A DNA stretch of 64,000 bases from an uncultured Glaciecola sp. GTDB lineage: Bacteria; Pseudomonadota; Gammaproteobacteria; Enterobacterales; Alteromonadaceae. Position 1 is the stretch's first letter; each line of letters starts with the position of its first letter. The position numbers and the translations under genes are program-made. Shown piece after piece: positions 1-61,865 of the stretch. The notes under the pieces were generated by a model. That model had not been told where the DNA came from, searched no databases, and saw nothing but the letters and a program-made list of their open reading frames with translations. The stretch covers positions 1-64,000 of the forward strand of contig CANMCE010000009.1 of assembly GCA_947496235.1 (NCBI GenBank), in the 5' to 3' direction.

Positions 1-375
1 GTAAGTTTATTATTGAGTTGATTATTTTTTATCTCAACGGATTCGAGCTTTTCTGTAAACTCATTACAATTTGAAGTCTTTAAAGATACTTCTTCTTCTA
101 GTTCAGAAATTCTATTTTCGCAGGTTACGAGAGTGCCTGACATTTCTGTAAGTTTATTATTGAGTTGATTATTTTTTATCTCAACGGATTCGAGCTTTTC
201 TGTAAACTCATTACAATTTGAAGTTTTTAAAGATACTTCTTCTTCTAGTTCAGAAATTCTACTTTCGCGGGTTACGAGAGTGCCTGACATTTCTGTAAGT
301 TTATTATTGAGTTGATTATTTTTTATCTCAACGGATTCGAGCTTCTCTGTTAACTCATTACAAATTGAAGTTTTT
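1..375 (-). repeat. Tandem 147-bp in-frame repeats (seven heptads each)
   Basis: Units begin at 1, 148 and 295. The first two differ at only three positions over 147 bases. The third matches for roughly its first 80 bases and then diverges. The period of 147 bases is 49 codons, exactly seven coiled-coil heptads, so adding or losing a unit keeps both the reading frame and the heptad phase. The array continues beyond the left edge of the window, so the copy number is unknown. Confidence 0.95.
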
Positions 376-1394
376 AAAGAGATTTCATGTTCAAACTCTG
401 AAATTATTTTTTCTTGGTTACCCTTTGCTTTTGATACTTCAATCAACTCGACATTCAGTTGTTTGTATTGCACTTCAAGAATTTCATATTCAGACTTTAA
501 CTCCTTAAAGTTAGACGAGTTTGATTTTATTTCTTGTTCTAACTTTGAAATTATTTCTTGTTTTTTTTGGTTGAAAGCATTTAGTTCATTAGTCTTTTCG
601 CTTTTGACTTGTAACTCGCCTTCAATCTGTTTCTTAATTGTTAGCAATTCGGTTAATTTTATCTGTAGGTTGTCTCTTTCATCTAACACAGTTTTTAAAA
701 TAGCTTCTATTTTTTCACAGGACCTTTTGATTTCCTCAGTTTCTTGCAGTTGCTTTTCGGCTAGATTTTTAGCTTGTATCAAACAATCGACTCTTTGAAT
801 AATACAGCATTCTATTCCAGTACTAAGATTAGGTAGCACTGTAAAGTTTTCAAGTGCACCTGTCAGAGTTTCTGGAAACCTTTCTGCAAAATGAGTTAAT
901 CCATCAAGTATTACATACTCAAACTTTTCAATTAAATTTTTATCTGCACTTTCTAGCAGAAATCTTTCCCCACCGTTCACTGACAAAATCAGTATGTTCG
1001 CTTGGTCGTTTTCTGATGAAAATTTACTCAACAGGGAATTTATAGAAATACCGGCAACGATTTCTTTTGATATTAACTTTAAATTTGGATGAGAGGATGC
1101 GAGCCTCTCTTGAGACAATAGTGAATTATATCGAGGGTTGTTGTATGTAAAAACGTCACCTTTTTGATTACTTCCTGGGAAAACCCAATTTTTGAAAGAT
1201 ATTATGCCTGAATGTTTCTTAGCTTTTTGTTCCAGCGCTGCGTATAGCTGAGTTGATCCTTCGACAAGCGTTAGGTTTTCTGCTTTAAATTTTTTCAACA
1301 CAGGTATACTTGAGCCAGTCCCTGCTCCTATATAAAGTAAGGAGTTAAGAGGTTTTTGGATATACTGCAATAAATAGTTTATACACTCTTTCAT
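1..1394 (-). CDS. Methyltransferase-like protein with long repetitive coiled coil (3' end outside window)
   Basis: An uninterrupted frame of 464 codons runs from an ATG at 1394 off the left edge, so the C-terminus is missing. Residues about 19-30 read LLYIGAGTGSS, resembling motif I of SAM-dependent methyltransferases, with an acidic LVEGS about 20 residues later. Residues about 130-190 (ILSVNGGERFLLES...FEYVILDG) resemble the end of an FkbM-type methyltransferase fold. From about residue 200 the protein is a Glu/Lys/Asn/Leu-rich coiled coil, and its visible end consists of tandem 49-residue units. It starts 16 bases after the stop of the glycosyltransferase-like gene, so it is probably co-transcribed. 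A role in glycan modification or chain-length control is inference from context; the methyltransferase activity itself is not proven by the motif. Confidence 0.75.
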   Translation of the reverse strand, partial: MKECINYLLQYIQKPLNSLLYIGAGTGSSIPVLKKFKAENLTLVEGSTQLYAALEQKAKKHSGIISFKNWVFPGSNQKGDVFTYNNPRYNSLLSQERLASSHPNLKLISKEIVAGISINSLLSKFSSENDQANILILSVNGGERFLLESADKNLIEKFEYVILDGLTHFAERFPETLTGALENFTVLPNLSTGIECCIIQRVDCLIQAKNLAEKQLQETEEIKRSCEKIEAILKTVLDERDNLQIKLTELLTIKKQIEGELQVKSEKTNELNAFNQKKQEIISKLEQEIKSNSSNFKELKSEYEILEVQYKQLNVELIEVSKAKGNQEKIISEFEHEISLKTSICNELTEKLESVEIKNNQLNNKLTEMSGTLVTRESRISELEEEVSLKTSNCNEFTEKLESVEIKNNQLNNKLTEMSGTLVTCENRISELEEEVSLKTSNCNEFTEKLESVEIKNNQLNNKL

Positions 1395-1410: not shown

Positions 1411-2577
1411 TCAGTCTAAAAGCCAATCTATCAAATCATTGAATAGAGTTCTAAAATAGTTGTTTCGTTTTGATTTCCTAGCGATTGAAATTGAGAGTTT
1501 CTTGAATGCAGCATTTATATAATAGGTACTTTCAAGTCGATCAAGTTCACGGGTTAACCAGCAATTCCCCTTTACTATTACGGGGATATTAAAATAAGAA
1601 GCCAGCCATACTAGTCCTGAACTTTTGTATTGATAAGCTTGTGGGCAGTGAGTGCAACATAGAAGATCTACGGACTGAATAATAACAGACAATTTAGTTA
1701 CAGACCAGAATTCCCTATATATTTTTAGTTGAGAATATTGATTAGAAATTTTTTTTAATTCTTCTATTGTGTTGTCAATCTCAAGATTCTCCCAAGGTAA
1801 AGTAAATTGAATGATCACTTCCACGGAGAAGTTAAATTGTTTGAGTATAGTAAGAGTAGTTTCAGGTAAGGTTAAAAAACCTTTACTCTTTTTAGCATCG
1901 CCGAGATATAAGAGTATACGAGGTACTGTATTTAGTGTCGTTTCTGACTGCTTTATTTGCTTCCAAGGAAGCAAATAACATGGGTGAATACCAGACATTG
2001 GAATATTTAAGGATGTATAATAGTCCAATGTTTCCTTATCTGAAGCATATAATTCAACATTAGAACAAAGAGATAGATTTTTGAAAGAAATTTGGTATTG
2101 TAGTTTTTCCTTAAGGTTACTTCTGCGATTCTGTGAAAACATACAACATATTTTATGAATTGTTTGTAGTTTTCCAAATTTCACATGTTGCAAGGCTAAA
2201 TTCAACGCGCAAGCATGGTCCCAGTTAAGACTCGGATAAAAGCAAACAATCTTTGTGTTGCTGTCAAAATCACTTAAGTATTGCTTTAACGCTTCAATAT
2301 ATTCGATAGCTAGTTGTCTAATGTATGACTGAATCGATGATAGACTAACATTACTATCATTTGAAAAGTGCTCATAGAAATTCTGATTAAAATGCTTATT
2401 TACGGTAAACCCTCTTTCAATTGCATCATCCAAGAACCGACGATCAATTTCCTGATGTACGAAAAAGTGAATATTGATGTTAGCTTGATCATGTTTTACT
2501 AGAAAATTGTTTAATAGAGCAGCGTGATGCCCGCCTGCCTCCATCATACCAGGATCAATTATGCAAATTTGCTGCAT
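1411..2577 (-). CDS. Glycosyltransferase-like protein
   Basis: A 388-residue protein without membrane segments. The N-terminus (CIIDPGMMEAGGHH) has a GGHH loop like the N-terminal Gly-rich loop of GT-B enzymes. Residues 222-234 (LLYLGDAKKSKGF) look like the start of the C-terminal nucleotide-sugar domain, where GT4 enzymes have a G-x-x-x-x-x-K-G motif. Residues 316-336 (KSSGLVWLASYFNIPVIV) resemble the donor-binding segment that chooses a favoured neighbour. I infer a GT-B, possibly GT4-like, glycosyltransferase; the sugar and acceptor are not visible. It begins two bases after the stop of the upstream 820-residue gene and is followed after 16 bases by the coiled-coil gene, so the three form one leftward operon. 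Confidence 0.65.
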   Translation of the reverse strand: MQQICIIDPGMMEAGGHHAALLNNFLVKHDQANINIHFFVHQEIDRRFLDDAIERGFTVNKHFNQNFYEHFSNDSNVSLSSIQSYIRQLAIEYIEALKQYLSDFDSNTKIVCFYPSLNWDHACALNLALQHVKFGKLQTIHKICCMFSQNRRSNLKEKLQYQISFKNLSLCSNVELYASDKETLDYYTSLNIPMSGIHPCYLLPWKQIKQSETTLNTVPRILLYLGDAKKSKGFLTLPETTLTILKQFNFSVEVIIQFTLPWENLEIDNTIEELKKISNQYSQLKIYREFWSVTKLSVIIQSVDLLCCTHCPQAYQYKSSGLVWLASYFNIPVIVKGNCWLTRELDRLESTYYINAAFKKLSISIARKSKRNNYFRTLFNDLIDWLLD

Positions 2578-12450: not shown

Positions 12451-13479
12451 CTAGCTTATTTTAATTAATTCTTGGATGGCTCTTTTAGTAAGAGGCGTTT
12501 GCTGTTCATTTTTAAGGAACCTTAACAGATAAGCTCTTACTTCAGGTAGCATTACTAAATCTGCGAATACACCTTTAAACAAAGTAAAATCAGGACTGGC
12601 TTCAGCGACTTTATGAAAGTAATTTAGTACTCGATCATCATGATTAAAGTAATGCCAATGACGGCCTGCAATAACCACTAATAACTCAACATCTAACACT
12701 TCTTCAGACCTTACAATATCATCAATTAATGCCTTTAAGGTTTCTAAATCGCCATGTGCTAGTGCTCTTAGCGCCAATGCTTTTGTATTACCTTCTTGGG
12801 TGTTAAAAAAAGTAATCAAAGCGTTAGTTTGCTGGGTATTCAATTTGATCGATTCAAGGGAACTCAACAAGCAATTTAGTACAGGTGAGGGGAGCGTTTG
12901 TAAATCAGAGTCAAGCAAATTCGATAGCTCGATTTCTGAAAGCATAACCACTGCATCAGAAATATTTTGTACGCTTAAGGATTCCCAATTAGAGCCGTTT
13001 GGCTTTGTCAGATAATCTTTGGCTTTAATCGCTTCATCAGATAAATCAAAGGCTAAGCGTTTTTTTAATAGAGCGTTACAATCGGCCAAAAGTTGCTGAT
13101 TAGGCGTGAAAATGTAGGGATTTTCTGGCAAACCTTTGTCAGTTTCTTGTGTCTTTTCTAACGATTGTCCGAGAGCATCTACTACAATCTGTAGAAACTG
13201 ATCTCTAGCAGCGCTTTGTAATAAGCTGCGCTCATCTAAAGGTAATGACAAATACCAGATATAATGTTCATTATTCAGTTTTCGATTCCAAAACATGATA
13301 CATAACCAAGCTTTTCCTTGTCTTGCGCGAGGAAAGGGTGCTTTATGATTTTCGATATCGAAAAAATCTTGTGGATCAAAGACGTGTTTGCCTCGACTAA
13401 CATCAATTATGATGTATTCTGTGCCGGCATGGAGTAAAAATTCACTGATTGTACTGATTGAGGGAGTAACGTCTGTCAT
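12451..13479 (-). CDS. DUF3549 family protein
   Basis: A 342-residue soluble protein. The N-terminal third contains the conserved ISEFLLHAGTEYIIIDVSRG and an aromatic-rich strand segment (AWLCIMFWNRKLNNEHYIWYL). The C-terminal half is all helical and leucine-rich, resembling HEAT-like repeats. This matches the DUF3549 family, a conserved gammaproteobacterial family of unknown role. It is first in a two-gene leftward unit with the DUF3301 gene and divergent from truC, with about 60 bases between them for both promoters. Confidence 0.82.
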   Translation of the reverse strand: MTDVTPSISTISEFLLHAGTEYIIIDVSRGKHVFDPQDFFDIENHKAPFPRARQGKAWLCIMFWNRKLNNEHYIWYLSLPLDERSLLQSAARDQFLQIVVDALGQSLEKTQETDKGLPENPYIFTPNQQLLADCNALLKKRLAFDLSDEAIKAKDYLTKPNGSNWESLSVQNISDAVVMLSEIELSNLLDSDLQTLPSPVLNCLLSSLESIKLNTQQTNALITFFNTQEGNTKALALRALAHGDLETLKALIDDIVRSEEVLDVELLVVIAGRHWHYFNHDDRVLNYFHKVAEASPDFTLFKGVFADLVMLPEVRAYLLRFLKNEQQTPLTKRAIQELIKIS

Positions 13480-19511: not shown

Positions 19512-19672
19512 GCTATTTTCGTTTAAACGATGAAAATAGCATAACTTAATTTAAATACACACACATATCATCACTTGGTTTCGGGGTGTCTTTGACGATT
19601 ATGCGAATAGTCGGTAAGGATCGGAATTAAGGATATGTGGAGGCCTAACCCCTACAATAGGAAAATATTATC
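19512..19672 (+). promoter_or_regulatory. rpsB mRNA leader, possible S2 autoregulatory element
   Basis: About 160 transcribed bases precede the rpsB ATG without coding content. They contain local complementarity (CGCTATTTTCG / CGATGAAAATAGC) and a second complementary pair, GGGGT near 19582 against ACCCC just before the start. In E. coli and relatives the rpsB leader is structured and mediates repression by free S2. That the same holds here is inferred from length and position; I could not fold it reliably. Confidence 0.45.
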
Positions 19673-61789: not shown

Positions 61790-61865
61790 CACCCCTTAGT
61801 TTAACTGGATAAAACGGAGACCTCCTAAGTCTTTGATACAGGTTCAAGTCCTGTAGGGGTGGCCA
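61790..61865 (+). tRNA. tRNA-Arg(CCU)
   Basis: A 76-base cloverleaf with encoded CCA. The acceptor CACCCCT pairs with AGGGGTG, the D-stem is GTTT/AAAC, and the anticodon stem GAGAC/GTCTT holds loop CTCCTAA. The anticodon CCT is at 61824-61826. The T-arm is ACAGG-TTCAAGT-CCTGT. It reads the rare AGG codon. In E. coli the equivalent gene (argW) is a well-known integration site. Coding density and gene quality drop immediately downstream. Confidence 0.96.

Follow-up and report, generated by a model that had tools for sequence, protein, structure and literature searches.

The tandem repeats at the left end of the window (the whole stretch of DNA analysed, 64 kb, taken from contig C9 from its first base) lie within the coiled-coil rod of a protein whose head is predicted to be methyltransferase-like. 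In the family to which this protein belongs, coil length has changed recurrently, with heptad multiples in excess in a small set of partly related cases. By analogy with known systems, and with about even confidence, we read the head-coil protein as a coiled-coil spacer or ruler, akin to WbdD, for an ABC-exported polysaccharide.

A single TRF array with a score of at least 50 was found in the window, with a period of 147 bp, 2.6 copies, 97% matches, no indels and a score of 718. Two units differing by three bases and a partly identical third had been described in an earlier note on this DNA, and the comparison of units bears this out. Three of 147 bases distinguish unit 1-147 from unit 148-294. 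The third unit begins at 295; it is identical over the first 50 bases, but across the whole unit 30-31 of 147 positions differ. The gene that carries the array is divided between C9 and a second contig, C26. Features are collected in Table 1.

Table 1 Features of the head-coil locus in the window and on contig C26.
Feature	Position	Strand	Basis or remark
In-frame 147-bp tandem repeats	1..380	-	49 aa = 7 heptads per unit; TRF, unit comparison, C26 overlap, genome match
Coiled-coil rod, one dominant heptad register	3..767	-	Register scan with shuffles; weak SMC-type coil matches
Head-coil gene, 5' part	3..1394	-	ORF, 464 codons, open at contig end
Head, predicted class I SAM-methyltransferase-like domain	768..1394	-	Residues 1-209
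Probable glycosyltransferase (GT3 cluster)	1411..2577	-	Immediately upstream of the head-coil gene in transcription order
Second coiled-coil protein CC17, 827 aa	2580..5063	-	Gene order; arrays in several relatives
Head-coil gene, 3' part	C26 12409-13161		250 codons including the stretch shared with C9

The coil was assessed by a register scan, in which the best fixed-phase hydrophobic contrast at the a and d positions was compared with that of 2000 shuffles. The C9 coil (255 aa) gave a contrast of 3.60 against a shuffle mean of 0.64 and maximum of 1.70, and the C26 coil (200 aa) one of 3.37 against a shuffle maximum of 2.09; neither value was reached by any of the 2000 shuffles. Even for a single 49-aa unit, the contrast of 3.90 was reached by only 1 of 2000. 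From residue 191 of the C9 part, 32 of 36 scan segments of 28 aa share a common best phase, the exceptions being the first two, at the boundary between head and coil, and two isolated ones. On C26 the common phase holds in 28 of 32 segments, with four neighbouring exceptions starting at 162-183, corresponding to a stretch of about residues 162-210 of the C26 part. The head-coil protein thus contains an extended coiled coil by the register scan, and the repeat unit takes the same heptad position on both contigs. Because the units hold one heptad position and phase, gain or loss of a unit preserves both the reading frame and the heptad phase. The earlier proposal that 147 bp, as 49 codons or seven heptads, keep frame and phase therefore holds for the in-frame ORF and for the scanned register. 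At a rise of 0.1485 nm per residue in a coiled coil, a 49-aa unit spans about 7.3 nm.

Residues 1-209 are confidently predicted, by an AlphaFold2 model and fold comparison, to form an N-terminal class I SAM methyltransferase fold of Rossmann type, in line with the methyltransferase-like head previously proposed. Coiled-coil and structure prediction, suggested in the same note as a check, returned one heptad register on C9 and C26 and a methyltransferase fold for the head. Foldseek with the head retrieved WbdD (4azs) at 2.0e-4, at rank 36 among many methyltransferases. At E≤0.01, the head profile matched seven PDB sequences, all of the rRNA adenine dimethylase/Erm type, and the WbdD chain was not among them. 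Since the heptad coil begins within about 20 residues of the head, and no kinase-domain family appeared among Pfam or NCBIfam matches up to an E value of 1, the methyltransferase is not followed by a kinase of the O9a type. The best weak family signal of the window head, 24.7 bits to TIGR01444, resembles FkbM-type methyltransferases (TIGR01444/PF05050), but this score lies under the curated cut-off of 37.7. Among 11 aligned heads, one matches PF05050 and two match RrnaAD instead. In addition, the first acidic residue aligned with D.EG.E, which we take to be the FkbM motif, is absent in 5 of the 11, including the window's. The head is described here as a putative methyltransferase whose acidic motif is partly lost.

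On its own, the window head had matches in 11 of 395 genomes from the taxonomic family (E≤1e-6), whereas patterns back-translated from the head retrieved no relative from genome contigs. With a profile of 11 heads (E≤1e-8), the order gave matches in 16 of 394 genomes and the class in 11 of 369, and the profile also matched 12 of 23 genomes in another genus; the family, order, class and genus sets overlap. Among 13 genomes of the window's genus, only the window's own (G000) has a head match. Used as a query, the C-terminal coil found matches in 5 of 98 genomes, of which two (G052 and G055) were dropped as, by eye, unrelated coil-containing proteins. The 26 loci counted below are 30 head-profile ORFs minus four, with C26 joined to C9 as one locus. 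The head-profile matches in G1081, G796 and G807 were dropped as other multi-domain proteins, and that in G020 as a 242-aa protein without a coil. The profile-matched genomes G1004, G937, G946 and G810 stand outside the 26-locus counts. G1001 (E 1.8e-10) fell under the ORF-level filter; it is a member by eye, stands outside both the 26 loci and the 28 coil lengths given below, and is counted among the 14 of 643 other ORFs with arrays.

Members have in common the methyltransferase-like head and a coiled coil, which is followed by one of three tails. Tail A is a conserved helical segment with its end near 'HPEL', tail B a short 'EAQIELIKD'-like segment, and tail C a second domain, methyltransferase-like by eye, for which a Pfam scan of one member gave nothing at 0.01. 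The C-terminal domain of tail C members (e.g., L072 8146-10146) is about 255 aa long and has a GSGTST motif. Coil length in 28 members ranges from 59 to 433 aa with a median of 198.5, or about 9-64 nm if fully helical, the coil ends being set roughly by profile matches (the tail of G335 is unscored and the head match of G617 is short). These 28 take in L089-L091, which are outside the 26 loci, and leave aside the window's own broken-up protein. Among the papers listed for intragenic coil repeats, sulfated capsule loci and tandem-repeat terminators, we recognised none that describes the family.

Using our own profiles (E<1e-10), KpsM/T/E/D-like genes were detected in the fetched stretch of 20 of the 26 loci. 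Six of these loci seeded the profiles and match by construction, and another three are counted among the 20 through a single gene each (KpsT in G349 and G1115, KpsE in G710). No KpsM/T/E/D-like gene was found in the fetched stretches of G176, G231, G488, G689, G1039 and the window. Head-coil genes are thus encoded with an ABC exporter in 20 of 26 loci, and in the window's genome a kps-like set (Pfam ABC2_membrane, ABC_tran and Poly_export) lies on another contig, C3, with linkage unproven; the left ends of C26 and C3 gave no overlap link. A 395-aa protein on C3, without a Pfam match, we take to be KpsE from its position. The export gene set on C3 (L088, 8512-14399) stands beside a gene that we presume to be WecA-like. 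PF05159 (Capsule_synth), which we take to be the KpsC/KpsS family, is present in 17 of the 26 genomes of the family-gene set, with 2 of 14 genomes matched in a control (E. coli and Bacillus subtilis). In six genomes of genus g71 (G749, G617, G475, G643, G490 and G702), the family gene is flanked on either side by PF05159 genes within a single contig. No PF05159 match was obtained in the window's own genome, so the C3 polymer may be undecaprenol-linked rather than Kdo-linked.

Known terminators offer the closest comparison. In the portions available of PMC5082667 and PMC3482155, WbdD is a terminator and ruler with a methyltransferase and a coil in an ABC-exporter setting; the latter excerpt also describes O8 WbdD as a simple methyltransferase without kinase. 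According to the available sections of PMC11231755, coiled coils are 'a characteristic marker' of ABC-dependent assembly, orthologues of the O7 terminator are methyltransferase-plus-coil proteins, and ruler function is called established for O9/O3 and O12. The head-coil protein shares with WbdD of O9a and O8 a predicted N-terminal class I methyltransferase fold, a long coiled coil, a C-terminal region and the setting of ABC-dependent glycans. Unlike O9a WbdD, it has no kinase, and no sequence relation was detected. The family further differs from WbdD in its sulfotransferase-like partner, its three tail types, its recent tandem DNA repeats and the PF05159 genes held by some of its loci. Its coils measure up to 433 aa, whereas the whole C-terminal domain of O9a WbdD comprises residues 460-708 in the excerpted text of PMC3482155. 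Klebsiella O7 ORF6 and its orthologues likewise combine a methyltransferase and a coil, sometimes with further modules, in polysaccharide clusters, but ORF6 proteins have a kinase-like domain and a carbohydrate-binding module and are set apart by their description, as far as the same part of PMC11231755 goes. Coiled-coil length also varies by heptad units in chicken BG genes; there, by the portion at hand of PMC5938342, heptads sit on 21-nt exons, with eukaryotic receptor tails and without an enzyme or glycan link.

The terminator likeness supports the statement that the protein works like these systems, not that it is a member of them, given the missing O9a kinase and the lack of any detected relation in sequence. 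The WbdD analogy drawn in the earlier note thus survives in the layout of head and coil and in the exporter genes, and fails for the kinase, with no sequence kinship detected. Likewise, of the methyltransferase/kinase or glycan link whose absence from the complete protein the note would have counted against its hypothesis, the predicted methyltransferase fold and the export genes remain, and the kinase does not.

On the spacer or ruler reading, the repeats would mark a recent expansion within a long coiled-coil rod that bears the methyltransferase-like head at its N-terminal end. The protein would act like the ABC-dependent terminators and rulers, i.e., WbdD of O9a and O8, WbbB and the terminators of Klebsiella O4 and O7. 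The conserved C-terminal tail would serve to dock other enzymes, in this locus probably the sulfotransferase-like product of the next gene, and gain or loss of units would change the length of the rod by whole heptads, by that 7.3 nm for each 49-aa unit, with the phase at its ends kept. The repeats, their register, the predicted fold of the head, the architecture of the family, the gene context and the recurrent length changes with their surplus of heptad multiples are observations, whereas the oligomeric state, docking, capping and ruler function are all four inferred. The seven-fold variation in coil length also suits a loosely constrained spacer.

A broader proposal, which we make tentatively and regard as unlikely, is that the family as a whole determines chain length in ABC-exported capsules and is retuned by recombination of in-frame repeats, mostly heptad multiples; this would take in, at similarly doubtful standing, the loci with PF05159/KpsC-KpsS genes.

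In the part seen of PMC12220298, chain length of ABC-dependent capsules is set by 'a yet-to-be identified factor'. Against the terminator or ruler reading stands the Hib capsule, which is ABC-exported without a chain-terminating residue in the available text of PMC11231755. By analogy, the family is a concrete candidate for chain-length control in ABC-dependent capsules, and its natural repeat variants would provide a ready-made length series for the ruler idea.

The surrounding genes bear on a different explanation, in which the protein is a scaffold without length control. In 10 of 26 loci, the head-coil gene is immediately preceded by a GT3 gene. Its alignment of 8 members contains invariant GDAK..KG F..LP-type and SSG motifs, and one of the 8 matches an LPS GlcNAc-transferase model at 0.0031. 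From the motif pattern and this one weak family match the gene probably encodes a glycosyltransferase, as had been suggested, although there was no Pfam match at 0.01 and no PDB sequence match at 0.1. Downstream of the head-coil gene on C26 come a sulfotransferase-like gene (Pfam E of 5.3e-4, short of the cut-off) and genes resembling those of GDP-sugar synthesis and glycosyl transfer; the names gmd and fcl are our assumption. The sulfotransferase-like gene directly follows tail A in 7/7 loci and tails B or C in 0/18 (Fisher p 2.1e-6, nominal). G335 was outside this test, as a sulfotransferase-like gene adjoins but the tail is below threshold. Genus g24 holds both arrangements (tail A in G231 and G349, tail B in G176), so the pairing is not one of simple descent there; other loci are related. 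That tail type and downstream gene go together suggests that the tail is an exchangeable docking module.

This pairing is explained equally well by a scaffold whose rod tethers enzymes, perhaps a glycosyltransferase-like one at the head, a sulfotransferase-like one at tail A and a second methyltransferase-like domain as tail C, and whose length drifts by repeat recombination with only the heptad phase selected. The seven-fold range in coil length, the arrays in neighbouring coil proteins and the partial loss of the head motif fit as well. The association with ABC export in 20 of 26 loci and the head-coil layout fit known terminators instead, and it is not obvious why a pure tether should require rods of 50-60 nm. 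We consider a scaffold alone possible, if rather on the unlikely side; scaffold and ruler can both be true.

Recurrence of the repeats was assessed by an array census (TRF, period of at least 40 bp, score of at least 100). Arrays were present in 9/26 family genes versus 14/643 other ORFs in the same stretches (Fisher p 2.6e-8), an enrichment that may reflect only that coils tolerate repeats. Six of the 14 are neighbouring coil proteins (labelled CC17 in G231, G297, G488, G617 and G702, unlabelled in G121). Near-identical tandem arrays in CC17-labelled neighbours have units of 52, 21, 57, 67 and 77 aa (e.g., G231 C20:44878-47919 and G488 C1:3234559-3236433), and the coil protein of G121 has an array of 71-aa units. 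In G231, G617, G702 and G121 the neighbour has the array and the head-coil gene does not.

In 5 of 9 members the leading unit of the family array consists of whole heptads (49, 56, 21, 119 (=42+77) and 21 aa; p 0.0045 versus a chance of 1/7). The others measure 64, 60, 39 and 74 aa; they leave a remainder of 4 or 1 modulo 7, as 11-residue steps would produce, a regularity noticed post hoc. Six coil-length comparisons were hand-picked as non-redundant from 11 pairs with more than 50% identity, and in four the net difference is a multiple of 7 (28, 21, 133 and 35 aa; p 0.0049 versus a chance of 1/7). The remaining two are 240 aa, made up of two 74-aa and two 46-aa units of G643, and 3 aa, a case that includes a gap at the boundary between head and coil. 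The pair G626 and G710 shows no coil difference. In these array and heptad tests the cases are few, related genes are treated as independent and the p values are nominal.

The same data speak to the idea that the in-frame repeats are neutral noise from slippage or recombination, tolerated in any coiled coil, with function independent of rod length. Non-heptad leading units in 4/9 members, non-heptad length differences in 2/6 comparisons, and arrays in unrelated ORFs (among the 14/643) and in neighbouring coil proteins would be expected from it. Nevertheless, arrays are much commoner in the family, and the sizes of units and of length differences favour multiples of 7; we therefore judge neutrality quite improbable.

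The array of the window spans an assembly break. The assembly comprises 55 contigs (4.42 Mb), and C9 ends at window position 1, inside the array. Within the genome, the only other match to window positions 1-400 is the end of C26 (12911-13161 of 13163), whose final 58 bases are exactly those with which C9 begins. C26 contains one additional full unit (12959-13105) with 5 differences to unit 1 and 6 to unit 2, and beyond it part of another unit, unique coil, the conserved tail and a stop. Should the two contigs truly meet at the 58-bp overlap, the shortest join gives a head-coil gene of 2091 bp (696 aa), and units beyond this length may be missing. A simple duplicated contig end was rejected as the origin of the array, because the C26 unit carries its own differences and its own flank. 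That C9 ends inside the array and shares exactly 58 bp with C26 could suggest an artefactual array and a different gene in the cell, but these private differences, and a frame that is open to the break on both contigs and leads into a tail and a downstream gene found in relatives, make such a mis-assembly highly improbable.

Outside the genus, G1001, which belongs to a different family within the class, carries a 42-aa (6-heptad) unit repeated 5.8 times at 94% match, together with tail B (C1:4287146-4289005). Elsewhere in the window, 19540-19649 corresponds to the Rfam t44 RNA and 61790-61862 to a tRNA, both ordinary.
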